Of a DNA stretch of 64,000 nt, positions 47,787-62,111 are shown one piece after another. Source of the DNA: Aquimonas sp. GTDB taxonomy: Bacteria; Pseudomonadota; Gammaproteobacteria; Xanthomonadales; Xanthomonadaceae. A program made the position numbers and the translations under genes. The stretch spans positions 5,692 through 69,691 of the forward strand of contig JAKOMQ010000006.1 of the NCBI GenBank assembly GCA_022241605.1, in the 5' to 3' direction. Position 1 is the stretch's first letter. Every line of letters starts with the position of its first letter. A model generated the notes under the pieces. That model was not told where the DNA came from, made no database searches, and worked only from the letters and a program-made list of their open reading frames with translations.

Positions 47787-47838
47787 TCCAAGCCCCAACG
47801 CCGCCCTACCCCGCCCGTAACGCCGAGAGCTTTTGACC

Positions 47839-48978
47839 ATGCCACTGCGATTACTCCACACCGCTGACTGGCAGATCGGCCGAGTCTTCTCGCAGTTCGA
47901 GCCGGACGACGCGGCTGCACTGTTCGAGGCGCGCTTCGCCAGCGTTGAACGCATCGCCGCGCTGGCCAACGCGCACGCGGTCGATGCGGTGCTGGTCGCA
48001 GGAGACGTGTTCGATGCGCAGACCGTGGCGGACAAGACGATTCGCCGTCTGTTCCAAGCCATGCAGGCCTACGCCGGCACCTGGCTGCTGCTGCCGGGAA
48101 ACCACGATGCTGCCTTGGCCGAATCGGTGTGGACGCGCGCGCAGCGGCTCGGCGTGCTGCCCGCCCATATGCGCGCCTGCCTGGAACCGCGCGTTCAGAT
48201 CATCAACGAGCGCTTTGCCCTGTTGCCCGCGCCGCTGATGCAGCGACACACCTACGACGATCTCACCCGCTGGTTCGACGAGGCTGAAACGCCTGCACAC
48301 TTGCCACGCGTCGGCTTGGCCCACGGCAGCGTGCAGGGCGTGTTGGCCGAGGACATCGACTCGGCTAATCCCATTGCCGCAGATCGCGCCACACACGCAC
48401 GGCTCGACTATCTCGCGCTCGGCGACTGGCACGGCTGCAAGCAGATCGATGCGCGCACCTGGTATGCCGGCACGCATGAACCCGAGCGCTTCAAGGACAA
48501 CGACCCCGGCCACTGCCTGCTGGTCGAGATCGACGGCCCGGGTTCCGCGCAACAGGTGCAGCAACTTCGCTGCGGGCGCTACCGCTGGCAGACACTTGAG
48601 GCCAGCGTGCAGGTCGCCAGCGATCTCGACAGCGTGACCCAGCAGCTCTCCGCGCTCGGCGCCGATGACGTGCTGCAGCTCCACGTCGCCGGCCTCACGG
48701 ACCTGGCCGGCCAACGTCGGCTGCAACATGCCATCGACGATGCCCGTGCGCGCGTGCGCGCACTGGTGGCGACGACGCATGCACTCAGCCTGCAACCCAC
48801 GCCCGAGGATCTCGACGCCCTGCATGCCGACGGCTATGTGGGCGAAGTGCTGCAGACCCTGCGCGACGAACAAGCCGGCGCCGACGGCGAGCGCGCCCGC
48901 GATGCGCTGGTGATCCTTGCTCAGCTGCTTGACGAGCAACGCGCGCGCACCACGACCCGTGCAGGCGGCCCGGCATGA
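47839..48978 (+). CDS. SbcD/Mre11-like DNA repair exonuclease
   Basis: The 379-residue metallophosphoesterase carries the full set of metal-binding motifs: LLHTADWQIG, VAGDVFDAQ, LLPGNHDAA, GLAHGS and ALGDWHG. It resembles the YhaO branch of SbcD. Together with the SbcC-like ATPase it should process DNA ends or hairpins. ATG 47839 was chosen over a TTG two codons earlier. It overlaps the ATPase gene by four bases (ATGA), so subunits are made together. Confidence 0.9.
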   Translation: MPLRLLHTADWQIGRVFSQFEPDDAAALFEARFASVERIAALANAHAVDAVLVAGDVFDAQTVADKTIRRLFQAMQAYAGTWLLLPGNHDAALAESVWTRAQRLGVLPAHMRACLEPRVQIINERFALLPAPLMQRHTYDDLTRWFDEAETPAHLPRVGLAHGSVQGVLAEDIDSANPIAADRATHARLDYLALGDWHGCKQIDARTWYAGTHEPERFKDNDPGHCLLVEIDGPGSAQQVQQLRCGRYRWQTLEASVQVASDLDSVTQQLSALGADDVLQLHVAGLTDLAGQRRLQHAIDDARARVRALVATTHALSLQPTPEDLDALHADGYVGEVLQTLRDEQAGADGERARDALVILAQLLDEQRARTTTRAGGPA

Positions 48979-51617
48979 AGCTGCGGCGCCTGCGCATCGA
49001 GCAATTCAAACGCTTTCGCGAGCCGCTGCTGATCGAAAACTTTGACGACGGCTTGAACCTGTTCGCCGCACCGAACGAGGCCGGCAAATCGACCGTCGCC
49101 GAAGCCATCCGCGCCGCCTTCTTCGAGCGCCACCGCAGCAGCAGCGTCGAACACTTGCGGCCTTGGGGCGACGCCAGCGCCGCGCCCAGCGTCGAGGTCG
49201 AATTCGATATCGATGGCAGCCGCTATCGACTGCACAAGACATTCCTGGGTCGCAAGCGCTGCGCACTGGAAATCGCCGGCCAGTCAACCCTGGACGGCGT
49301 GGCCGCCGAGGATCACCTCGCCGGCCTGCTGGGCTTCAAGTTCCCGGGCAAGGGCGAGAGCAAGCCCGAGCACATGGGCATACCCGGCCTGCTGTGGATC
49401 CGCCAGGGCGGCTCGCACGAACTCGGTGACGTCGTCAGCCACGCAGCCGACCAGCTGCGCACGGTGCTCAGCGAGTCACTCGGCGAACTGACCGCAACCA
49501 GCGGCGACGCCCTGCTGGCCGAGGTTGAAACCGCCCGCAACGAACTGCTGACCGCCAGCACCGGCAAGCCGCGTGGCGAACTCGCAGATGCGCAAAAGAA
49601 GCAGGCCGAACTAGCCGAGTCGCTCGCGCAGCTCGATCGCGACATCGACAGCTACCAGAACACCGTGGACCGCCTCGCCATGCTGCGCCGCGATCACCAG
49701 CGCGACGCGCAGGAACGCCCGTGGGAGAGCCTTCGCCAGCAGCACAGCGTCGCCGAAGCGAAGCTGCAGCAGGCGATGGGCTTGGCCTCACGCGAAGCCG
49801 AAGCGCTGAACCAGCAGCGGCAGATCGCCACGCAAGTCAGCGCGCTGCGCGATCAGCTCAGCGCCTTTGCGCGCGACGACGAAGCCGTGAAAGCGCGCAC
49901 ACAGTCACTTGAACAGACTGAAGCTGCGCTGCAGCGCGCACAGACAGAACTCGGCGTGCAGCAGCAGCGTCACCAGCACGCCATCGCCGATGAAGCCGCC
50001 GCGCGCGAGCACCTCGCCCGCATTCGTGCCGGCGCACAGCACGCCGAGCTGCGCGCCAAGGCCGACGCAATCGAGGCCACGCTGCGCACGCAGACCGATG
50101 CCCTGCAACGTGCTCGCCAAGCGCGCGAAGGCATGCTGGCGCTGCGCACCGATGCCGATGCGCTGCACATCGCGCCGGCCGATCTCAAAACGCTTGCGGG
50201 CCTGACGGCCTCGCTGCGCGACCTCGACGTGCGCCTCGAAGCCATCGCCACCGCACTCGACATCGAACTGCAGCCGGGCCAAACCCTGCGCATCGGTGAC
50301 GACACGCTCAGCGGCAGCGCCCGCCGCACCGTGCTCGGCCCGACCCTGATCGACATCGCGGGCGTCGGCCGCATCACCGTCACCCCTGGCGCCGCCGACC
50401 TCAACAGCCTCAAGGCGCAGCGCGAACACCCGGCCAGCGACCTCCAGATCCTGCTCGCCCGGCTCGGCGTCGCACACGTGGCCGCCGCCGAAGAACGCGC
50501 GCGCCAGGCGACCCAGCGCCGCCATGAAGCCGATGGCCATCAGAAGGTGTTGGAAACGCTGGCACCGCAGGGCATCGACACGCTCGACGCCGAGCGCGCC
50601 GCCGGCAGCGCCCGCCTTGATGCCCTGCGCAGACAGTTGGAGGCCCTGCCGCCGATCAGCGATGAGGACGCGAAACTGCCCGCACTGGCCAGCGTGGAGG
50701 CCACAGCAGCGCACGCTGCCACCGCACTCAAATGCGCAGAGGCCGCATTCAACGAGGCCCGCATCGCCCATGCACAGGCCAGCAGCGCAATCGCCAGCGC
50801 ACGCCAGGAACTCAGCGCCGCCGAGGCCACGCTGAACGACCCACAGCGTGCGCAGAAACAGACCACAGCGCAGGACGCACTGACCGATGCTTTGGCACGG
50901 CAGGCGACGGCCGAGCAAGCGCTGACAAGCGTGCAGGAGGCATTGCAGAACGCGCAGCCCGAACTGCTGAAGCAGGATGTTGAACGGCTTGATCGCAGCG
51001 CCCGCCAACTCGAAGAGGCCCACAGCCAACGCCAGCAGGAACTGATCCGGCTCGAAGCCGAACTGCACAGCAAGGGCGCGCTGGGCCTGGAAGAACAGCG
51101 CGCCGAACGACAGCAGAAGCACGAAGCCAGCCGCCGACGCAGCGAAGAACTCGGCAAGCGCGCCGCCGCGCTCGATCACCTGCTGAAGCTGCTGCGCGAC
51201 AAGCGCGCAGCGCTGGCCCGCCGACTGCGCGCGCCCCTGCAGCAGCATCTGGATCGCAACCTGCAGATCCTGTTTCCCGGCGCCCACATCGAGATCGCCG
51301 ACGACCTCTCACCCGGCCCGATCACCCGCAACGGCCAGCGCGGCACCGAGACCGGCGACTTCGATCAGCTCAGCCTCGGCACCCGCGAACAAATGGGCAT
51401 CATCGCCCGCCTCGCCTACGCCGACCTGCTGCAGCAAGCCGGCAAACCCACCCTGCTGATCTTGGACGACGCCCTGGTCAACACCGACGACGACCGCCTC
51501 GCCGGCATGAAACGCGTGCTCTACGACGCAGCGCAGAGGCATCAGCTGCTGATCTTTACCTGCCACCCGGCGGGGTGGCGGGATCTTGGGGTGGTGACTC
51601 GGGGATTGGAGTCCTGA
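48975..51617 (+). CDS. SbcC/YhaN-like coiled-coil ATPase
   Basis: The 880-residue protein has the N-terminal Walker A in NLFAAPNEAGKSTVAEAI (about 32-40) and the Walker B in LLILDDALVNTDDDRL near residue 825, with Ala/Glu/Gln-rich coiled coils between them. A central non-coil segment at about 410-480 (DIELQPGQTLRIGDDTLSG) takes the place of a zinc hook; no CxxC hook is seen. This is the YhaN pattern of SMC/Rad50-like ATPases. Partner of the upstream nuclease. It converges with the SIR2-HerA operon about 85 bases further on. Confidence 0.88.
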   Translation: MKLRRLRIEQFKRFREPLLIENFDDGLNLFAAPNEAGKSTVAEAIRAAFFERHRSSSVEHLRPWGDASAAPSVEVEFDIDGSRYRLHKTFLGRKRCALEIAGQSTLDGVAAEDHLAGLLGFKFPGKGESKPEHMGIPGLLWIRQGGSHELGDVVSHAADQLRTVLSESLGELTATSGDALLAEVETARNELLTASTGKPRGELADAQKKQAELAESLAQLDRDIDSYQNTVDRLAMLRRDHQRDAQERPWESLRQQHSVAEAKLQQAMGLASREAEALNQQRQIATQVSALRDQLSAFARDDEAVKARTQSLEQTEAALQRAQTELGVQQQRHQHAIADEAAAREHLARIRAGAQHAELRAKADAIEATLRTQTDALQRARQAREGMLALRTDADALHIAPADLKTLAGLTASLRDLDVRLEAIATALDIELQPGQTLRIGDDTLSGSARRTVLGPTLIDIAGVGRITVTPGAADLNSLKAQREHPASDLQILLARLGVAHVAAAEERARQATQRRHEADGHQKVLETLAPQGIDTLDAERAAGSARLDALRRQLEALPPISDEDAKLPALASVEATAAHAATALKCAEAAFNEARIAHAQASSAIASARQELSAAEATLNDPQRAQKQTTAQDALTDALARQATAEQALTSVQEALQNAQPELLKQDVERLDRSARQLEEAHSQRQQELIRLEAELHSKGALGLEEQRAERQQKHEASRRRSEELGKRAAALDHLLKLLRDKRAALARRLRAPLQQHLDRNLQILFPGAHIEIADDLSPGPITRNGQRGTETGDFDQLSLGTREQMGIIARLAYADLLQQAGKPTLLILDDALVNTDDDRLAGMKRVLYDAAQRHQLLIFTCHPAGWRDLGVVTRGLES

Positions 51618-51704
51618 TTCACACCCCCCGCCTTCGATAACTCGGCGGAGCGAACACCTCTAGACAAATCTCTGCTCTTGCGCGACCGGCGCCGACAGAA
51701 GACG

Positions 51705-51914
51705 CTACAACTTCATATATGAGTAGGCGTTCTTGATGTTCGCGTGGAAATACTTGCCTTTTGAATCTGACATCATAATCCCTTCATAAATGCCGAGAGG
51801 GACATTGGAGTACTGGTACACAGCACCTCTGATGAACTCAATTTCGAGCATTTTGGCATCTGCGTCATAGCCGATACTCTGGATGTCGGTTGACACCACT
51901 GACGTGCGCTCCAT
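51705..51914 (-). CDS. KTSC-domain protein at the end of the defence operon
   Basis: The 69-residue protein is a single KTSC domain: SVVSTDIQSIGYDADAKMLE, YQYSNVPLGIYEGIM and KGKYFHANIKNAYSYMKL; here the usual K-T-S-C ending has drifted. KTSC proteins are thought to bind RNA or nucleic acid, with little experimental data. Its start lies 25 bases after the HerA stop on the same strand, so it is likely co-transcribed. The gene is lower in GC than the core genome. Accessory role in defence is inference. Confidence 0.82.
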   Translation of the reverse strand: MERTSVVSTDIQSIGYDADAKMLEIEFIRGAVYQYSNVPLGIYEGIMMSDSKGKYFHANIKNAYSYMKL

Positions 51915-51939
51915 ATCTAATCTCCTAGTCCGCCGTAAC

Positions 51940-53895
51940 TTACGCTAATGGGGTCTTCGTCGATATTTCTTCTGTCTCTGGATGCTTCTCCGGTTCCTCT
52001 TCGACGACAGGCGTTGACTGAGGAACCTTTGGGTTCAGTTTCCGCCACGCCATTATCAATGGCCTATAGTCCTCGCCTGTGATCGATTCGGTCCACCCGC
52101 CACTTCTGACACGGAGCCCATCTGCACCTTTAGGCACCACGACAGCAGGGTCCTCGCTATCGGGTCGACCCCCCTCAGCCAAGCGATCAATGACCGCCCG
52201 AACCGGCATGTTGACAGCTTCACCGACGATTAGTGCTTCACCCGTCCTCAGGACTGGCAACATCGAGAACAGTCCCTTCAGATTGTCGGATGCGCAAGAC
52301 ATCACCTGCGAGCGATCTGCGTCATTGGTGAGACGCAAAGCGACGACCGTGCCGCACTGCGAGAGAATTGTCGCGTCAACTTCGGAAGGTCGCTGACTAA
52401 CCAACATGAGGCCTACACCATACTTACGGCCTTCTTTCGCAATTCTTCGAGCCGAAGTCGATGCGCGGCCTTTCGATTGAGCGCCGAGGTAGACATGAGC
52501 TTCTTCAAGCACAACGAGAAGCGGTCGTTCTCGACCACCCTCCTTCATAAAGCGCCCCCAGAAGATCGCGTCATACAAGATACGTAGCACCGCCCCGACG
52601 ATATCATCAACAATTGAGGCCGGGATCCCTGATAGATCAAAAACAGAAATGGGAGCCTCCAACCCGATCCACGCCGAAAGCAACTCATCCAAGTCGGATC
52701 TGGTTTGATTATCTGAGTCTACAGACCACTCACCAGGGTTAAACAGAAACTGCATCCGCGGGTCCCGGAGCTTACCCTCCAAAATGTCCAAGTGGGTACG
52801 CGGCATATCCATGTACAGACCCTTATGGATCTTCTCGGCACCAGCATCCGTGGTTACCGGTTTAAATCGTGGGCGGATCAGCTTATATGCATCGCCTTCA
52901 AATTTAACAGCAGGAACACCTTCAAGAATATGAGCTCGTGTCGCCTCTGTTTGATTCTGATTGCTGGAAACGGTATGGGTTGCACAATGGATCGAATACA
53001 GTTCGTGCCATAGCTTGAACACCGAGAACGGCAGTGGCGAATCCACAGTAATCTCCTCATCAACCAGACTGTGGGCAATTCCTCTTGGTCGTGAGAATCG
53101 CTTGCTAGACAGGATCTTCTCTTGCATGATTGCCAAGGGTGTCCCGCTCACCGAGCCCATCGCGATCGACATGAACTCGTCTGAGGTGAGAGCCCAAAAG
53201 GGGACGTGAAGCTCCCGCTCACCGGCCGCGATATCGGCCCCGACTCGAAACACTCTTGCAAGAGTGCCGAATGCTTTCGCGTACTCGCCATGAAGGTCAA
53301 ACAAGATCACTCGGGCTGACTGAAAACGGTTTCTATCCGAAACAACACCTAGGATTTTGGCGACAGCATTGGACTTTCCAGAGCCAGTACTCCCAACCAC
53401 AGCAGAGTGACGGCTGACCAATCGATTCAAATCAAGGTAGGCACGAATGGATTCAGCACTGGCAACTCTCCCGACCGCAACATAGCTGTCGTCATCGCCA
53501 GGCGCGTAGACGGTTTTCAGATCGGACTCGGTAACAACGTGCACCCAATCGCCAATCGAGGGGTACTGAGCGATACCGCGTTCAAACTTCGCTCCTCGCC
53601 GACCTTGCCCCACAAGCTCCACCCGAAGCCAGCGATTTCCAAACTGCGGCGCGAGCTCCGGAGGGCCTGGCGCGGCGCCCGCGCCCACCTGCGATATCAC
53701 CCCGTACAGATCAACGTACCCTAAAGGGATACGAACGAAGCCGCCAACCTGACCGACTTGGTATGCCTCGCCGTTGACGAACAAGAGCCCACCTGGGGTG
53801 CTGTCCGCAAGTTTGACACCAATGCTAGACCCATTGACGTCCTCTACTGTGCCAAGCCGTGATGGATCCGCGCTACGCATCTGATTTCGAGCCAT
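51940..53895 (-). CDS. HerA/FtsK-type ATPase of a SIR2-HerA defence pair
   Basis: The 651-residue product has the HerA barrel N-terminal domain (about 1-150), Walker A in VVGSTGSGKSNAVAK (168-175), VILFDLHGEYAKAF, Walker B in LLVVLEEAHVYLG (about 461-472) and a C-terminal SQRPSEVDATILSQCGTVVAL segment. It belongs to the DUF87/HerA translocase group that forms hexamers. In SIR2-HerA (Nezha-type) systems the ATPase and SIR2 protein form a complex that degrades NAD during phage infection. ATG 53895 is preceded by GGAGGG; a GTG at 53910 is an alternative. It overlaps the SIR2 gene by 23 bases. GC content is visibly lower than in the core regions. Confidence 0.92.
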   Translation of the reverse strand: MARNQMRSADPSRLGTVEDVNGSSIGVKLADSTPGGLLFVNGEAYQVGQVGGFVRIPLGYVDLYGVISQVGAGAAPGPPELAPQFGNRWLRVELVGQGRRGAKFERGIAQYPSIGDWVHVVTESDLKTVYAPGDDDSYVAVGRVASAESIRAYLDLNRLVSRHSAVVGSTGSGKSNAVAKILGVVSDRNRFQSARVILFDLHGEYAKAFGTLARVFRVGADIAAGERELHVPFWALTSDEFMSIAMGSVSGTPLAIMQEKILSSKRFSRPRGIAHSLVDEEITVDSPLPFSVFKLWHELYSIHCATHTVSSNQNQTEATRAHILEGVPAVKFEGDAYKLIRPRFKPVTTDAGAEKIHKGLYMDMPRTHLDILEGKLRDPRMQFLFNPGEWSVDSDNQTRSDLDELLSAWIGLEAPISVFDLSGIPASIVDDIVGAVLRILYDAIFWGRFMKEGGRERPLLVVLEEAHVYLGAQSKGRASTSARRIAKEGRKYGVGLMLVSQRPSEVDATILSQCGTVVALRLTNDADRSQVMSCASDNLKGLFSMLPVLRTGEALIVGEAVNMPVRAVIDRLAEGGRPDSEDPAVVVPKGADGLRVRSGGWTESITGEDYRPLIMAWRKLNPKVPQSTPVVEEEPEKHPETEEISTKTPLA

Positions 53896-55228
53896 GCCCG
53901 CTCCCTCCACAGAGCTGTTCTAGAAAGAGACCGAAGTAGTGGAAGTCTCCAAGCCGACAGTACGGACTCGTCGGCTCTGGATCGCTCCCGGGCATCGACT
54001 TCTCAAATAACCACGGCGCGTGCTCGTCGCCGCCAGCCGTTCCCGGGCGATAGAGCCCAGGACGGGTTCCGACGACAGCACCATCCCACGCAAGCACAGT
54101 CAAATTGCCTTGTTTCGCCGCGTACTCAACTGCTCTGGGATGCGCGCCCAGCTCAGAGTACATAAGTGCGAAACACTGAGCGTTTCTATTTCCACGCAGT
54201 CCATCGAGAATAACTTCATTCAGATGATCGTCCAAGAAAGAATACCCGCAAACCACCAGCCTGGGAGCATCCCTTCCGTGGAAAAAGGCGCGAAGCCGAT
54301 CTAGCATTGCAAGATACGGCATTCGTCGGCTTTGGTCGTACTTAAGGTGAGATGGATAGATCATCACTTTGCCGTTAGCGGCCTCCCGAGTTACGCGAAC
54401 AACCCTCGCCACCTTGGTTCCATTTACATTCTCCTCGATCCGCTCCCAGTTAATTGACCCGTGAAGTTTCCACAATCTAGTCCAACGAGCAGGGATTGCA
54501 TCGCTTTCGATCGAGGACAAATCGAACCATGGCTCCCGAGAACCAACAAAGCCATCGAAGTGCGGTAGTGGATGCCGCTCGAGTGCCTGTTCAAAGAGGA
54601 CGTCATAGTTGGGAGTGAATATTTCGGCAGGCGAGTCGCGACTTACCCCACCAATCCAAGAAGCGAAGCGGTTGTACGAGTTTCGATACTCAGGCAGCGG
54701 CTTGCTGATTTCGTTCACGATCAATGAGCAGATTTTTTCATCCAGCTCACTAAGTTCCACCTTTGAAATACCCAACACTGGCGCACTGCCGCGCCGGTTT
54801 GCTAGGGTTCGCAGCTCCGTAAGCACATCCTCAACGGTAGGGATTTTTCCGTCGGCTGATTGGCACTCGTCGTACAACGAGTCCCAATGGCTCTTTAACT
54901 TTGAGGACGACCCAGGCTCGGCGTCGAGTCTTTCCAAACCAAGCGCCACACGTTTTGTGAGCTCAATAACTGCCGGAATAAGGACGATACTTGCGCCCCC
55001 TGATTCGTCATAGACGCCAAGTGGACAACCTGCGCCAAGAAAGCACCCGATGCGTTGCTTGTTGTCCTGCAGTACCTGGCGCAGATTTCTAGCTTGCTGA
55101 GCGGCGTCATGAACCTGAGGTAATTTCACGTCAAGTGGGCCGGGTGTAGAATCCGGCACAGCTAGTGCGGGGGCGGGGGCGGGGGCGGGGGCGGGGGCGG
55201 GGGCGGGGGCGTGGGGATCATTGTTCAT
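53873..55228 (-). CDS. SIR2-family NADase-like protein of the SIR2-HerA pair
   Basis: The 451-residue protein has SIR2 motifs: the NAD-binding CFLGAGCPLG (residues 62-71), the TPNYD segment with its catalytic Asn (about 203-207), the HGS segment with the catalytic His in LWKLHGSINW (about 255) and VVCGYSFLDDHLN. Bacterial SIR2 defence proteins hydrolyse NAD to stop phage growth; the combination with HerA is known. The N-terminus carries seven Ala-Pro repeats (7-20), coded by seven GGGGGC units, before the domain starts near residue 30. A start downstream of the repeat is possible but none is as well placed. The ribosome-binding site AGAGGA sits ahead of the ATG. Confidence 0.9.
   Translation of the reverse strand: MNNDPHAPAPAPAPAPAPAPALAVPDSTPGPLDVKLPQVHDAAQQARNLRQVLQDNKQRIGCFLGAGCPLGVYDESGGASIVLIPAVIELTKRVALGLERLDAEPGSSSKLKSHWDSLYDECQSADGKIPTVEDVLTELRTLANRRGSAPVLGISKVELSELDEKICSLIVNEISKPLPEYRNSYNRFASWIGGVSRDSPAEIFTPNYDVLFEQALERHPLPHFDGFVGSREPWFDLSSIESDAIPARWTRLWKLHGSINWERIEENVNGTKVARVVRVTREAANGKVMIYPSHLKYDQSRRMPYLAMLDRLRAFFHGRDAPRLVVCGYSFLDDHLNEVILDGLRGNRNAQCFALMYSELGAHPRAVEYAAKQGNLTVLAWDGAVVGTRPGLYRPGTAGGDEHAPWLFEKSMPGSDPEPTSPYCRLGDFHYFGLFLEQLCGGSGHGSKSDA
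55169..55210. repeat. Seven tandem GGGGGC hexamers at the start of the SIR2 gene
   Basis: On the plus strand GGGGGC repeats seven times without change. In the SIR2 frame it encodes (Ala-Pro)7. Each unit carries five G, so the plus strand could form G-quadruplexes. Confidence 0.95.
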
Positions 55229-55257
55229 GGTCGATTTTTCCTCTCCATAGTCACGAC

Positions 55258-55284
55258 GTGGAACCGAATTCTGAAAAGTTCCAC
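55258..55284. repeat. Inverted repeat between the helicase and SIR2 genes
   Basis: GTGGAAC and GTTCCAC form a perfect 7-base inverted repeat with a 13-base centre, touching the helicase stop codon and about 30 bases upstream of the SIR2 start. It could be an operator, an RNA hairpin that tunes SIR2 expression or a weak terminator. Confidence 0.5.
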
Positions 55285-58200
55285 TAGCCGGTTATGACGG
55301 CAATCGCCGCCATAAGCCTCTCTCTGCTTGCTGCCCGCAGTTGCTGAAGCCCGATTTCCCGAGCCATAGCTATCACCGCAACCTCCTCTGTCCTACCAGA
55401 ATCAAGAACCCAGTGCGCAAGCGACGCCAGTTCTTGAATGCAGATCTCGCCTACCGCGCGAGCGACATCGTCGTCCGCAGGCCATCTATACACCACGTCG
55501 CTGCCTGTCTTTAAACCGCGCGGCCAATAGAAGGTCCCTCCGACCTCTTCCGTGGCATTGAAGAGCCTCTGCGTGATCTGAACTACCCTCTCCTGGATTC
55601 GGCTGCCGGTGCGCTGGAAGCCGTGGCCGCGGGCGATTCGGCGGGCGAGGACGCTATCGAGCACGGGGCCTTCGTGTTGGACCACGTGCTCGATCATCGC
55701 GGTGAGCACGCTGTCGTAGTCGGGATCGAAGAAGCGTTCAGCCGAGAGGGCGCCCTCGGGCACGGCCTCGGCGGGGTTGCTGGGAGCGAAGCGTGGGCGG
55801 TCGCTTTGCGCTTGCGCTTGCGCTGCGCCAGATGGCGGTGGTGCGGATGCATGCTCGACGCTGTCGGCGTAGACGGCCTGTTCTTGCGCGGTCGCTGCGC
55901 GCGCGGCGTTGTTTGTGTCGAAATCGCTCGTGCCTGCGTCGATCTGCCTTGCTGCGGCGGCCAAGGGCGTGAGCCGATCGGTTTCGATTTGGCTGCGTGC
56001 CGCGTTGGCGTCGTCGCTGCCCGCCGAGCGTAGTTCGCTCACCATCGGCTCATTGCCAGTTTGCCGCTCCGCCACCTGTTCCCCTGATGCCTGCTCCGCT
56101 TCGGCGCGCTCTCTCGTTGCCTGCTCGTCCGCGGCGAGTTGCTCTGCCGCAAGCTCCTGCGCTGCGCGCTCCCGCGCGGCCTGCTCTTCGGCACGCTGCG
56201 CCAGGGCGCGCTGGCCGCGGTCTTCTTGCAGCAGTTGATTGAGGCGGGTGTGGATGCGCTCCAGGGTGCCGCCGGGGTTGACCCACCAGTCGGTGGACCA
56301 CAGGCGCAGGATCTCCCAGCCCAGGCCGCGCAGCACCTGTTCGCGCAGTTTGTCGCGGTCACGGGCGGTGGCTGAGCGGTGGTAGGTGGCGCCGTCGCAT
56401 TCGATGCCGGCGAGGTAGCGACCGGCGAAATCGGGATGCACCACGCCGAGGTCAACGCGGAACTGCGAGGCGCCGATCTGTGCATGCACCTGCCAGCCCT
56501 TGCGCTGCAGGGCCGCGCATACACTGACCTCGAAGGGGCTGTCGAAATCGCCCTGGCTGCAGTGATGGGCTTCGGCCAGCGCGCGTGGGCCGCGTTCGGC
56601 GAACTCAAGGAAATGCTTGAGATCGCGCACGCCAAGAGCCTGGGTGCGAGACAGATCCATCTGCTCACCGCGCAGGCTGGCGAACACGCGCAGCTCGTGG
56701 CGGGCGCGGGTGATAGCGACGTTCAAACGTCGTTCGCCGCCGCTGCGATTGAGCGGGCCGAAGTTCATCGACAGAACACCTGCGGTGTTCGGCCCGTAGG
56801 TGATGGAGAAGTACATGATGTCGCGCTCGTCGCCCTGCACGCTCTCCAGGTTTTTTACGAAGACCGGTTCAAGCAGCATCTCAGAGAAATAGCTCTCCAG
56901 CGCGGGGTCGATGCGGCGCTCAGCGTCGAGCAGGTCTTCGATCAGGCGCTGCTGTTCGGAGTTGAAGGTGACCACGCCGATGGTGAGGCCCGACTCGCGG
57001 AAGCCAGCGGATTTCAGGCGACCCACCAGGTCAGCGACCAGCGCTTTCGCTTCGGGCTGGTTGATGCGCGCCCCACCCTTTTCGTAGGTGCCCTCAACAA
57101 AGTGGAAGCTCACCGCGCGGTCATCGGTGACCGGCGAGGGGAAGGTGACCAAGCCGCTGTTGTAGTAGCGGTGGTTGCTGAAGGCGATCAGGCTCTCGTG
57201 GCGCGAGCGGTAGTGCCAGGACAGGTTGCGGGTCGGCAGGCTGGCGCCCAGGCATTCATCGAGGATGCTCTCAAGGTCGCCTTCGACATCATCGGAGTCG
57301 AGTTCGGAGCTGTCGGCGCGGTCGAAGAAGTTGGTGGGCGGCAGTTGCTTGGGGTCGCCGACCATAACCACCTGCTTGGCTCGGGCCATGGCACCGATGG
57401 CATCCCACACCGGAATCTGCGAGGCCTCGTCGAACACCACCAGATCGAAGTTGCTGGCATCGGCCGAGAGGTACTGGGCGATCGACAGCGGGCTCATCAG
57501 CAGGCAGGGCGCCAGCTTCAGCACCACCGACGGAATCTCCTGCAGCAGCTGGCGCAGCGGCTTGTGTGCGCGCTTCTTCGCCATCTCGTGCCGCAGCACG
57601 CCCCACTCGCTGTTGCGCGAGATGTTCTCGACCGAAGGCAGATCGGCACACAGCCGCGCGCGAATCAGCTGCCGGGTGATGCGGGTGAACTCATCGTCCA
57701 GCGCGCGGAAGTCGGCGATGCGCTGCTCGTGCTCGGCGGAGACGAAGCGCTTGAGCACCTCGTCGGCATCCACCGCCTCGCCCAGCCACCAGCGCGCGTA
57801 GTTGGTCTCGAAGGCCTGGGGCGCCTGAGCTGCGTCGACATCGCCGGCCTCGATCGCCTTGGCGAGTGCATCCAAGCCGGCCGCAGCGGCCTGCTGCTGC
57901 ACCACGCGCCAGCCGCACCAGGCACGCAGGCCTGGGTGCGCGCCTTCCAACTGCGCGGCCATCGTGGATACGGCCTCGGCGGAGCGCTCCTTCAGTGCGG
58001 CGCGCTCGGTGTCCGGCTGCGCTGCCAGGGTGCCGAAGCCCTCCAGCGCGGCATTGAGGTCAGCGAGCTGCGCGGGCAAACGCGAACACAGGCGGCCGAT
58101 TTCGCCCGTCTCGGCCAGCGCCTCACGGCGATGGGCGAGCACGCCGAACAGCGCTTGCATTGCCGTAGCAGCGCTTGCGCCCAAGCCGTTCAAGCCCGCC

Positions 58201-61200
58201 TGCAGCAGCGCGCGGAAGCGCAGCGCGCGAGCGAGGTTGTCGAGGTCCGTGTCGAGCCCGCTCCACACGGCGGGGCAACGGCTGTGCAGCTCACTCAGGC
58301 CGAGCAACTGTGCTTCCAGCGTCGCGCGCTGAATCAGCAGCGCGTGCTGGGCTTGCAAGGCCGCGCCGCAGCGGCCGTCGGCGACGGCATCGTGCGCGTT
58401 CTGCAGCGCGCCGCGCTGGCTCAGGCCCAGGCGCTCGCGCTCAAACTCCATCGCCGCGCGCAGCTCTGCGGTATCGGTGGTGAGCCCGCGCCACAGGCCG
58501 TGGCTGGGCTCTGCCAGCGCCGCGCAGTCCGCCAGCTGTCGATCCTGTTGCGCCAGCGCTTTCAATCGCTGCGCCTCGGTCACCCAGCGTTCGCCGCAGC
58601 CACCTTCGAGCGCGGCGTCCAGCCCCTTGGTGTTGAATGGCCGCTGCGTGCGTGCGGCAAGCAGTGCGGCATTCGCAGCGAGTGCGCTGCGCGCGTCGTC
58701 GGCGCGTGTTTTCAGCCCGGCCCACACCCCTTCAACGGCTGCGCCGGGGTTGATCTGTTCGACCTCGCTGCCGAGGCTGCGGATGCGCACCAGTGCGTCG
58801 AGGTCCTCGGCGACGCGCGGCTCGCCGGTGCCTTCGATCACGCCATCCAGCGCCTTGCGCACCCGCCGTTTGCCAAGCCAGGACATCGGCCAGAACGACT
58901 TGTCGGCCTTGTCCCAGTCGCGCTGCAGTTGGGCGACGTTAAGCGGGGCCACGCCACTGCCATAGCGCACCGAAAGCCCTTCACGCAGGCGAGCGATTTC
59001 TTCGATGCACTGCACGCCGCGTTCGACCTCAGCCCGCACGGCCACCGGCCACGGCGTTCCGAGCTCGGCATGCACGCGTTGGCGTTGTTCAAGCAAGGCG
59101 ATCGCCTGACCCAACTGGGCCTGCAGCTCGGGCGACCACGGTGCGGCCATTCGGGTCGACAGATCGCGGTGCTGCGCCAGCTGTTCGGCTGCCGACTTCA
59201 ACGAGGAACACAGGCGCTCGCTATCGGCCGCGGCACAGAAGCTCCAGTCCTGCGCGGCGGCCTGCGGCAAGGCCTTGGAAAGGATGCCCAGCGACGAGCG
59301 CGCGCGATAGCCGAGTTCGGGCCACTCGATATCCAACTGGCTGCCGAGCGCGCTCAGCGTTGCGGCCAGCGCATCTGCTGCCCCGCGCAAGGTTTGCGCC
59401 GCCTGCACCAACTCTTGCTGCCACCGCGCCGACCATTCAGTGACATGCACGGGTGTCAGCGGCCCAGCGGCGAGATCTTGCTGTCCGATCGCCGAAGCGT
59501 TGGCCTGCAGCCGCGTCGCCAGTTCACGCAGTGATGCATACGCGGCTTCGTCATGGCTTTCCGGCGAAGGCCAACGGAAACGCAGATCCGGCAGCGCCGA
59601 ACCGCCTACCACGCTGCCGATAGCGCGGAAGATCGTCCAGCCGTTGCGATGGCGAAAATGCAACCGCTCGACGTAGCTCGACAGCTGCTCGCGAAGCCGC
59701 GAAAGCTGCTGCGCTTTGGCTGCCCACACCGTTGAGGCATCAATGCCCTTTGCCTGCCATGAGGTCTGCAGCTGGCTCAGCACATCAAGCTTGCGACTCT
59801 TGCTGGAGTGCAGCTCCAGGCAGAACTCGCTCAGCCCGACCTCGCGCAATCGACGATGCACCACGTCCAGCGCGGCGATCTTTTCGGCCACAAACAGAAC
59901 GCGCTTGCCGTCTGCCAGACACTGCGCGATCAGGTTGGCAATTGTCTGGCTCTTGCCCGTGCCAGGCGGCCCGATCAACACGAAGTCCTTGCCTTTGGCC
60001 GCGGCCATCACCGCGGACAGCTGCGAGGAATCCGCCGGCAGCGGGCTGAACACCTTGTCGGGCGTGTAGTCGCGATCCAGCGTGTGCGCGTCGGGGAAGG
60101 CAATGCTGGACGGATAGGGCTCGCGCGGGGTGTCGAGCAGATGCGCCACCACCGGCGACTTGCGCAGGTCGTCTGTGCGCTCGGACAGGTCCTTCCACAT
60201 CAGATACTTCGCGAACGAGAACATGGACAGCACCACGTCCTCGCTGAGCTCCCAACCGCGGATGTCGCGGATCGCCGCGCGTACCCGCTTCCAGATCCCG
60301 GCAATGTCCAGCCCCGAGTCATCGCGAGGCAACTCGCCCAGGGGCACGCCCAGATCGAGCTGGAAATCCTGCCGCAGCATTTCGACCAGAGTCGGGTTGA
60401 AGCGGGACTCGTCCTCGTGCGCCAGCAGGGTAAAGCCCGAGCGCGCGCTCTTTCGTTCCAGGGTCACCGGCATCAGGATCAACGGGGCCTTGATGCGCGC
60501 CTCGGGCTTGTCTGCACGCGACCACACCAGAAAGCCGAGCGCGACAAACAGAGTGTTGGCGCCGCCTTCCTGCATCGCCGTTCGGGCACCGCGAAACAGT
60601 TCGACCAGTCGCCCGTCCAGATCACGCTCGTCTAAACGCACGAACACGTCTTTGCGCTTCAAGGCGTCCGCTGCATGGGCCCGGCGAAGGTCTTCCGAGG
60701 TTCTGGATTCGTGCAGTTGCTGACTGCGAGGATCGCCGCCCTGCATCACCTCGGGCATGGGCAATAGCCGCAGGGTCTGGCCTTCCGCCAGGGCGTCTTC
60801 GAGCGCCGCGGCATCGGCCTCCAGCACCAGCGCGCGCTTACCTTGCTTGAAGTTCAGCAAAGCGTTGCGAAGCGACAGATCAAGCAGCTTGCGCTGCCAG
60901 CGCGCCAAGCGGTCCTTCGGATCAAGCGCAGCGGCGGGGACCTCGCTGACGACTTCATCCGGAAGATCGGGGGCGGCCTCAACGGTGAGGATGGGCTCGG
61001 GCAGAGCTTCCGCAGGAACAGAAAGCGTGGGCGCTGCACTGGCGAGCGCCAGCGGCTTGATGCGCGACATGCGCGCACGCCGCACATCTACCGCGAGTTC
61101 GAAGGCGTCCTCTTCTTCCTCGGAAAGCTGGCGATTGCCCTGCGCGATCGCTTGGCTGAAACCGGCCGGCTGCGCGGAGGTTGCCAGCGTAGTTTCGAAC

Positions 61201-62111
61201 ACCACCAGTTCCTGCAGCTTGAGGCGCTTTCGTAGGGCGGTGATGTCATCGACCACTGCAAACGAGAACTCCTCATCACGCAGCCAGACCCCAACAAACG
61301 CATGGCCGCGGGTGAAGATCAGCAGCGGATTGAGGCCGGCCTGTTCGAGGCAGGCAGCGAACAGCAGGGTGAGGTCCAGGCACGTGGCAAGGCCCGAATC
61401 CAGAGCCTGGCTGGGGCTGCGCACCTTCTGCCCGGTCATTTCAAAGCTGGCGGGTGGCAGCGTGTAGTTCAACTTTCGCTTGAGCACTGCGGTCCAGATG
61501 CCAGACGCCAGCTCCCAGGCGCGCTTTGCGCCATCGCCATACCCATTGATTGCGCCCGATTGCCCTGACTCCTGCAGCGCGAGTGCTGCGCTCTTCAAAA
61601 GCCGATCAATCGCTGGATCGTTCGGCTGCACAAATGCAGCGACCATTTCAGGCAGGTAGGCGATGCCGCCCCACTGATTGCGTGCGAGCAGTTCCAAGCT
61701 GTGGGAATACGTCGTCAGAGGCGCGTTGCTTGCTTCTGCAGAGTGGAGCTCGAAGCTCAGCGTCGCAGGTTCGGCTTCGGTAAGCCGCGACAGCAGGGTG
61801 CCGTCGAGCTGGATGTCCAGATCCTTCAGGTGGAAAGTCTCGCCAGCGCCGACAGAATCGAGCCGCCAGGTGCGAGGCTTCACGAAAGCTGGCTCGCAAG
61901 TGAGTTGGAGCCTCAGGTCACGGAGTGATGCGCTGCCTTCGTTGACGACAGCGAGCTCATGCAAGACCGGCACGGCGTTTTGGAAGTCGGCGAGATTGAG
62001 CTTGGCGAGCGCACCGACTCGGAGGCATACCGCAGGCCCGTCAGCTGACTCACCCGTCAGAAATCTTGCATCTGCAGCGGACTCATCCGATCGCTTCATT
62101 CGCTCTGACAC
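55284..62111 (-). CDS. DUF4011-helicase-Vsr-DUF3320 anti-phage protein (Hhe-like)
   Basis: The 2275-residue protein contains, in order: a beta-sandwich-like N-terminus; a transglutaminase-like segment at about 230-290 (GLATCLDLTLLFAACL, GHAFVGVWL, VVDD); a DUF4011 region from about 395; a split SF1 helicase with Walker A GPPGTGKSQT (about 714), DEAD-like VVFDEASQIP with VMVGDPKQLPP (about 1560) and motif VI NVAITRARHELRVF (about 1790); a Vsr-like nuclease (about 1850-1955, with IECDGATYHRSATARDRDK); an Ala/Glu/Gln-rich linker; and DUF3320 at the C-terminus. The DUF4011-helicase-Vsr design was reported as an anti-phage system (Hhe). GTG 62111 has GGAG nine bases ahead; ATG 62099 is an alternative. 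SIR2 starts 55 bases after its stop. Confidence 0.92.
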   Translation of the reverse strand: MSERMKRSDESAADARFLTGESADGPAVCLRVGALAKLNLADFQNAVPVLHELAVVNEGSASLRDLRLQLTCEPAFVKPRTWRLDSVGAGETFHLKDLDIQLDGTLLSRLTEAEPATLSFELHSAEASNAPLTTYSHSLELLARNQWGGIAYLPEMVAAFVQPNDPAIDRLLKSAALALQESGQSGAINGYGDGAKRAWELASGIWTAVLKRKLNYTLPPASFEMTGQKVRSPSQALDSGLATCLDLTLLFAACLEQAGLNPLLIFTRGHAFVGVWLRDEEFSFAVVDDITALRKRLKLQELVVFETTLATSAQPAGFSQAIAQGNRQLSEEEEDAFELAVDVRRARMSRIKPLALASAAPTLSVPAEALPEPILTVEAAPDLPDEVVSEVPAAALDPKDRLARWQRKLLDLSLRNALLNFKQGKRALVLEADAAALEDALAEGQTLRLLPMPEVMQGGDPRSQQLHESRTSEDLRRAHAADALKRKDVFVRLDERDLDGRLVELFRGARTAMQEGGANTLFVALGFLVWSRADKPEARIKAPLILMPVTLERKSARSGFTLLAHEDESRFNPTLVEMLRQDFQLDLGVPLGELPRDDSGLDIAGIWKRVRAAIRDIRGWELSEDVVLSMFSFAKYLMWKDLSERTDDLRKSPVVAHLLDTPREPYPSSIAFPDAHTLDRDYTPDKVFSPLPADSSQLSAVMAAAKGKDFVLIGPPGTGKSQTIANLIAQCLADGKRVLFVAEKIAALDVVHRRLREVGLSEFCLELHSSKSRKLDVLSQLQTSWQAKGIDASTVWAAKAQQLSRLREQLSSYVERLHFRHRNGWTIFRAIGSVVGGSALPDLRFRWPSPESHDEAAYASLRELATRLQANASAIGQQDLAAGPLTPVHVTEWSARWQQELVQAAQTLRGAADALAATLSALGSQLDIEWPELGYRARSSLGILSKALPQAAAQDWSFCAAADSERLCSSLKSAAEQLAQHRDLSTRMAAPWSPELQAQLGQAIALLEQRQRVHAELGTPWPVAVRAEVERGVQCIEEIARLREGLSVRYGSGVAPLNVAQLQRDWDKADKSFWPMSWLGKRRVRKALDGVIEGTGEPRVAEDLDALVRIRSLGSEVEQINPGAAVEGVWAGLKTRADDARSALAANAALLAARTQRPFNTKGLDAALEGGCGERWVTEAQRLKALAQQDRQLADCAALAEPSHGLWRGLTTDTAELRAAMEFERERLGLSQRGALQNAHDAVADGRCGAALQAQHALLIQRATLEAQLLGLSELHSRCPAVWSGLDTDLDNLARALRFRALLQAGLNGLGASAATAMQALFGVLAHRREALAETGEIGRLCSRLPAQLADLNAALEGFGTLAAQPDTERAALKERSAEAVSTMAAQLEGAHPGLRAWCGWRVVQQQAAAAGLDALAKAIEAGDVDAAQAPQAFETNYARWWLGEAVDADEVLKRFVSAEHEQRIADFRALDDEFTRITRQLIRARLCADLPSVENISRNSEWGVLRHEMAKKRAHKPLRQLLQEIPSVVLKLAPCLLMSPLSIAQYLSADASNFDLVVFDEASQIPVWDAIGAMARAKQVVMVGDPKQLPPTNFFDRADSSELDSDDVEGDLESILDECLGASLPTRNLSWHYRSRHESLIAFSNHRYYNSGLVTFPSPVTDDRAVSFHFVEGTYEKGGARINQPEAKALVADLVGRLKSAGFRESGLTIGVVTFNSEQQRLIEDLLDAERRIDPALESYFSEMLLEPVFVKNLESVQGDERDIMYFSITYGPNTAGVLSMNFGPLNRSGGERRLNVAITRARHELRVFASLRGEQMDLSRTQALGVRDLKHFLEFAERGPRALAEAHHCSQGDFDSPFEVSVCAALQRKGWQVHAQIGASQFRVDLGVVHPDFAGRYLAGIECDGATYHRSATARDRDKLREQVLRGLGWEILRLWSTDWWVNPGGTLERIHTRLNQLLQEDRGQRALAQRAEEQAARERAAQELAAEQLAADEQATRERAEAEQASGEQVAERQTGNEPMVSELRSAGSDDANAARSQIETDRLTPLAAAARQIDAGTSDFDTNNAARAATAQEQAVYADSVEHASAPPPSGAAQAQAQSDRPRFAPSNPAEAVPEGALSAERFFDPDYDSVLTAMIEHVVQHEGPVLDSVLARRIARGHGFQRTGSRIQERVVQITQRLFNATEEVGGTFYWPRGLKTGSDVVYRWPADDDVARAVGEICIQELASLAHWVLDSGRTEEVAVIAMAREIGLQQLRAASRERLMAAIAVITG

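Follow-up and report, generated by a model that had tools for sequence, protein, structure and literature searches.

The locus described here raises the question whether four tightly spaced genes on the minus strand of an Aquimonas sp. contig form one composite anti-phage system, as a first-pass annotation had proposed by linking a Hhe-type DUF4011-helicase-Vsr gene to SIR2, HerA and KTSC, or whether two defence loci abut. The window, i.e. the whole stretch of DNA that was analysed, is 64,000 nucleotides long, and its features relevant to this question are as follows.

Layout of the locus and type of the large gene

51705..51914, minus strand: KTSC-domain protein, 69 aa (Pfam PF13619, E 2.4e-22), third gene of the SIR2-HerA-KTSC module
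51940..53910, minus strand: HerA-type ATPase/DNA translocase, 656 aa from GTG with a likely ATG start at 53895 (Pfam DUF87/HerA, 9.6e-30)
53873..55228, minus strand: SIR2-family NADase-like putative effector, 451 aa (Pfam SIR2_2, 6e-14)
55229..55283: ProA/SIR2 junction of 55 bp, the slot that holds DUF2130, RM or BREX genes in other trio loci
55284..62111, minus strand: ProA-type DUF4011-helicase-REase-DUF3320 protein, 2275 aa, a separate neighbour outside the module
47833..51617, plus strand: SbcD/SbcC-like gene pair (Metallophos 1.1e-9, AAA_23 9.4e-9), convergent with KTSC and outside the module

The layout bears out what had been read from the letters: all four open reading frames and their Pfam domains were found on the minus strand in the order claimed (5'->3' ProA-type protein of 2275 aa, SIR2, HerA, KTSC), the gaps of 55 bp (ProA/SIR2) and 25 bp (HerA/KTSC) are correct and the 23-bp overlap between SIR2 and HerA holds with the HerA ATG at 53895. 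By eye, purine-rich stretches resembling ribosome-binding sites precede SIR2, HerA (at its ATG) and KTSC. Since no minus-strand sigma-70-like promoter was found in 51500-55500 and the single minus-strand terminator-like site in that interval lies inside HerA, co-transcription of the window genes is possible. A hexanucleotide repeat of the CCCCGC type (55150-55215) encodes an Ala-Pro tract at the SIR2 N-terminus, where a change in copy number would stay in frame. The tRNA-Asp that ARAGORN places on the plus strand inside ProA (55831-55911) has no Rfam match there and is probably false.

The large gene, in contrast, is not of the type that had been assigned to it. Its 2275-aa product carries the Pfam domains DUF4011 (2.8e-47), AAA_11/12, MTES_1575 REase (the Vsr-like part) and DUF3320, and passes the NCBIfam model NF058533 ‘anti-phage protein ProA’ at 2274.9 bits against a cut-off of 1500; with Hhe (NF042953) it reaches 838.3 bits against 2000, and a Hhe identity was rejected. 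Its best PADLOC match is the candidate PDC-S37, a term that was not found in the open-licence literature of PubMed Central, where ProA in the anti-phage sense is apparently unnamed among the matches listed. According to a passage in PMC10250203, Pseudomonas aeruginosa has a defence hot spot whose contents vary and which is bordered on the right by a conserved DUF4011 gene.

The SIR2-HerA-KTSC trio and ProA across genomes

Species genomes were scanned with the window SIR2 protein, which gave 57 loci, a sample that favours the clade of the query because it was drawn with one SIR2 sequence. In 53 of these 57, far above chance, SIR2, HerA and KTSC follow each other on the same strand and in fixed order; three of the remaining four are cut by contig ends (L073, L076, L077) and one (L070) is decayed, as stops interrupt its SIR2 frame and HerA is reduced to a remnant. 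ProA was found by tblastn (E 1e-3) in none of the 57 trio-type loci, a search confined to the fetched flanks of up to 10 kb per side and with readable DNA upstream of SIR2 in 54 of the 57 (almost no sequence is there in L030, L041 and L043, and little in, for example, L042, L046, L050 and L062). The reverse search, using profiles built from trio members that may miss diverged homologues, gave no match to SIR2, HerA or KTSC in 22 ProA-like loci (385 kb), of which eight score above the ProA cut-off (L123, L126, L145, L167-L171), 14 are weaker relatives and five are cut by contig ends (L145, L168, L175, L176, L178). The loci covered do not include weaker matches, among them the family loci L090-L109 and the class genomes G398, G337, G440, G218, G070, G100 and G105. 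The ProA/SIR2 junction was seen in the window only.

Trio and ProA also differ in base composition. GC is 0.46-0.55 for the trio genes, 0.66 for ProA and 0.67 for the window, and GC at third codon positions is 0.56-0.64 for the trio versus 0.78 for ProA. Among 22 close relatives, trio GC remains at 0.48-0.57 regardless of flanks of 0.49-0.67, as would fit a module that moves between hosts. According to their titles, the trio contigs come from several classes of Proteobacteria, Acidobacteria, Planctomycetales, Spirochaetes, Verrucomicrobia, Caldilineaceae and Acidimicrobiia, many of them metagenome bins, and the trio is also found on an archaeal plasmid (L138, Natrinema).

Lack of co-occurrence in both samples, together with the GC difference, therefore suggests that the trio probably moves as a set of three genes and that ProA, next to it, is independent. 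So to our minds, the locus is best read – and with good confidence – as two anti-phage loci that lie side by side but are independent of each other: a stand-alone gene for ProA, a large helicase-nuclease of a known type, and directly behind it a SIR2-HerA-KTSC module that is self-contained, probably mobile and of a widespread, NAD-destroying type, with KTSC as a gene of its own. For the composite operon proposed at the outset, this means that the SIR2-HerA-KTSC part stands as an operon-like unit and that the pairing with ProA, which does not belong to the trio, is not supported: a survey for co-occurrence of the four families, as the first-pass annotation had suggested, recovers the quartet in neither the 57 nor the 22 loci. 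Adjacency by chance in this strain, which the annotation had named as speaking against its own proposal, is largely what we find within these samples, because co-occurrence is nil and base composition differs. The trio may nevertheless ride on the ProA transcript, and the 55-bp spacing and the trio's habit of following other genes (see below) leave room for real coupling between the two.

Three further searches gave little. An empty site was sought within the genus, in three further genomes of which one is 76% complete, but neither flanking gene (SbcC-like, E 1e-50; SIMPL, E 1e-3) was found there; repeats that might bound the trio are just short weak pairs, and a phage collection yielded two records, with distant HerA matches only.

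The window and two plasmid loci (L133, L139) have SbcD/SbcC-like genes next to the trio, and an SbcD-like metallophosphatase follows KTSC in L046 and L078. A general association of SbcCD with the trio was rejected: the window SbcC and SbcD queries (E 1e-5) match none of the 57 genome loci and two of 12 plasmid loci. On the haloarchaeal Natrinema plasmid (L138:6762-7854), two CDS with the annotation ADP-ribosylglycohydrolase family come after the trio; they might process ADP-ribose products.

KTSC and the SIR2-HerA pair

SIR2 matches PADLOC PDLC04094 (E 2.7e-110) and PDB 8w9l (E 2.9e-75), and HerA matches PADLOC PDLC04105 (E 1.9e-149 over 11-626) and PDB 8wiv (E 1.1e-183). The motifs of both enzymes are intact. 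SIR2 residues N207, Y208, D209 and H256, which we matched by motif to pocket residues named for DSR2 in an excerpt of PMC11263360, are invariant among 36 aligned proteins, and the HerA translation keeps Walker A (GSTGSGKS) and a Walker B stretch (LLVVLEEAH). An intact NADase pocket, SIR2 and HerA homologues in one operon-like unit and a KTSC domain accompanying HerA place the trio in the SIR2-HerA clade of 8wiv/8w9l.

KTSC belongs with this pair, as had been proposed: it lies downstream of HerA in 53/57 loci, has no further match elsewhere in the 1.04 Mb that these loci comprise, and is fused to HerA in the solved complex. In 8wiv, a KTSC profile hits the C-terminal 69 residues of HerA (628-696; E 1.4e-27), the only fused HerA-KTSC sequence seen. 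The AlphaFold2 model of the window protein (pLDDT 94.5) superposes on the HerA C-terminal domain in 8wld, 8wof, 8wiv and 8wj3 with a TM of 0.91, and in a fold search the same domain scores Z 12.7 with an rmsd of 1.1 over 67 residues; besides KTSC proteins and the HerA chain just named, the matches listed are weak (Z 4.3 or less). Because the alignment between window HerA and 8wiv stops at residues 592/582, the split falls in the linker before KTSC. By the match of KTSC to the HerA C-terminus and that of SIR2 to 8w9l, the window thus holds a split-gene form of the solved complex. HerA and KTSC distance matrices correlate (r 0.82, n=41, reached by 0/1000 permutations), as expected for any linked pair.

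Plasmids give a similar picture. The window HerA matched 644 plasmid records, of which the best 40 were considered and 604 lie beyond; KTSC directly follows HerA in all of the best 32 of the 644 (HerA identity at least 35%), 27 judged by coordinates and five by annotation (H3, H4, H14, H15, H16), many of them near-identical enterobacterial plasmids. At H34 (HerA 29% identity), the one row of H33-H40 (~30% identity) that was examined for it, KTSC is absent. As for KTSC itself, just 96 of 72,556 plasmid records have a match. A search with profiles likewise built from trio members, and thus liable to miss diverged homologues, found KTSC in none of four diverged SIR2-HerA pairs and none of five HerA loci without a SIR2 match; L112 and L122 of the same survey have it. 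Presence in near relatives and absence from the four distant pairs indicate that KTSC marks one clade and not every SIR2-HerA system, so to judge by these profiles it is not needed in each of them. A Klebsiella plasmid (L143:3894-6773) carries one ORF that matches both the SIR2 (2.4e-14) and the HerA (2e-92) profile, likely a SIR2-HerA fusion protein without KTSC. HerA of L046 (4215-5700) is broken by an insertion whose two ORFs resemble, by eye, IS3-type orfA/orfB transposase.

How the trio works can be envisaged from its relatives. An excerpt of PMC12198126 describes a two-layer Sir2 dodecamer with a HerA hexamer, whose binding opens the SIR2 NAD pocket, and a part of PMC11559045 reports that protection by Vibrio Nezha requires both the SIR2 active site and HerA. 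By analogy, HerA hexamers would dock onto SIR2 oligomers, and upon infection the HerA motor would engage DNA and the SIR2 pocket would open, so that NAD+ is depleted and infection aborts; assembly of HerA with SIR2 and NAD depletion are the most likely mode of action for the window proteins, too. KTSC, in turn, would dock at the HerA C-terminus. Here we lean, tentatively and a little short of evenly, towards an accessory subunit at that site which senses nucleic acid or a trigger (or helps in loading). KTSC is described as DNA-binding in a passage of PMC9503650 and as RNA-binding in one of PMC7824862, the only two papers in open-licence PubMed Central that have KTSC and HerA together. By our own count, the window protein has seven K/R and eight D/E and presents no obvious patch for nucleic-acid binding. 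Primary papers on SIR2-HerA structures may already discuss the KTSC domain.

KTSC might instead restrain the pair in the way of an antitoxin, keeping SIR2-HerA off until a phage removes it. That the third, 3'-most gene is small and is retained beside an NADase-type protein in 53/57 loci would suit such a role, but fusion of KTSC to HerA in the solved system and the more distant SIR2-HerA pairs without a KTSC match make it unlikely to our minds.

Genes upstream of SIR2 and comparison with known systems

In 25 of the 54 readable loci, a same-strand gene with an identified domain ends no more than about 120 bp before SIR2, often after a very short gap or overlapping it by 4 bp; no such upstream partner was identified in the other 29. 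The partners are:

DUF2130 (15 loci, often with a 4-bp overlap): L023, L024, L025, L027, L028, L029, L031, L032
DUF2130, continued: L033, L037, L040, L042, L044, L075, L077
ABC-3C/DUF2326: L026 and its close copy L039
PglX: L064, L065
BrxL: L048
HsdR: L055, L069
HsdM: L052
Type III Res: L078
DUF2779: L046

RM, BREX or ABC-3C genes thus make up nine loci in total. The count rests on ORFs called mechanically, except that the start of SIR2 was placed manually in L032, L035, L053, L063, L071 and L079, and takes in only genes with an identified domain; long ORFs, for example in L047, L056, L072, L073 and L076, some of which look spurious, were left out, L039 was included because it closely resembles L026, and L077 was kept among the 25 although its contig ends inside SIR2. 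L023 and L024 (93% identical over 11 kb), like L026 and L039, are near-duplicates that do not count as independent. Clustering first revealed the DUF2130 genes, the search profile was then built from those 15, and two of the 15 were checked against Pfam.

The window has no DUF2130 gene; ProA occupies the slot that other genes fill elsewhere. As deduced from gene order, the DUF2130 protein is a possible fourth component of some trios, and the two that were scanned matched no PADLOC model. A type III methylase follows KTSC in L037, and a similar ORF has the same place in L075. L065 (6434-15716) reads PglX-SIR2-HerA-KTSC-PglZ and, with pglX and pglZ on either side, the trio therefore sits inside a BREX operon there. 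Since the trio often lies directly behind another gene, a transcript shared with the neighbour may be common and the neighbour variable, and ProA as the particular partner looks interchangeable.

That defence genes may be embedded in other defence operons is an idea already present in the literature. Alternatively, the trio could be a second-line abortive effector that inserts in or behind many first-line systems (BREX, RM, ABC-3C, perhaps DUF2130 and ProA), makes use of their transcription and fires when the first line fails. The 25 of 54 loci with a close partner and the gene order of L065 speak for this, but the remaining 29 loci, the non-independent copies, the two DUF2130 proteins without a PADLOC match and the option that clustering in defence islands plus selection for shared transcription would alone give such placement leave it, like a restraining KTSC, improbable. 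Slightly more doubtful still is the bolder version, by which the trio is a portable suicide module, recurrently plugged into and licensed by first-line defences of unrelated kinds (BREX, type I and III RM, ABC-3C, perhaps DUF2130 and ProA), with KTSC as a detachable, trigger-sensing subunit of HerA. A composite four-gene system, in which sensing or cutting of phage DNA by ProA would trigger NAD depletion through SIR2-HerA, we regard as very improbable, for although ProA and SIR2 are co-directional and 55 bp apart, 51500-55500 has no promoter-like site on the minus strand, and trios recurrently lie close behind other genes, ProA and the trio do not co-occur in either sample, differ in composition, and unrelated genes take ProA's slot at other trio loci.

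The preferred reading of two abutting loci separates systems that a reader would merge, ProA and SIR2-HerA-KTSC, and presents one SIR2-HerA clade as a set of three genes (with KTSC split off), not two, in most sampled loci. A library of the PADLOC type omits this third part, because no PADLOC model matched KTSC at E 0.01, and two-gene clones of split loci could be incomplete in experiments. That the trio sits so close behind BREX, RM and DUF2130 genes also poses the question whether immune operons hold built-in back-up effectors.

Compared with known systems, the large neighbour is like ProA/PDC-S37 (2275 bits to the former, best PADLOC match to the latter), and like Hhe it is a DUF4011-helicase protein, but it misses the Hhe cut-off. 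With Nezha-type SIR2-HerA (8j4u/8su9/8uaf) the trio shares the SIR2 and HerA pair and the conserved N/Y/D and H of the NADase pocket; however, similarity in SIR2 is partial, and the window proteins stay far below the cut-offs of NF042942, NF042943 and NF042944 (51.2/500, 172.3/800 and 244.6/850 bits), models which we take, from their names, to stand for Nezha. Closest is the complex in 8wiv/8wj3/8wk0/8wld/8woc/8wod/8wof, presumably the SIR2-HerA complex of Liao et al. (2024, NAR), to which both proteins are homologous over most of their length and with which the trio has the same three domains including KTSC; there, however, KTSC is the C-terminal domain of HerA (628-696), whereas in the window it is a gene of its own with start and stop. 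Sets of HerA, KTSC and an endoDNase are mentioned in one sentence of PMC9503650, where HerA is coupled to a KTSC gene in a predicted conflict system; these carry the endoDNase in the sirtuin's place, whereas the window has SIR2 and KTSC together. With the fused relative solved and the HerA-KTSC link already mentioned in that sentence, the trio is, as far as its genes tell, new as a split-gene variant.
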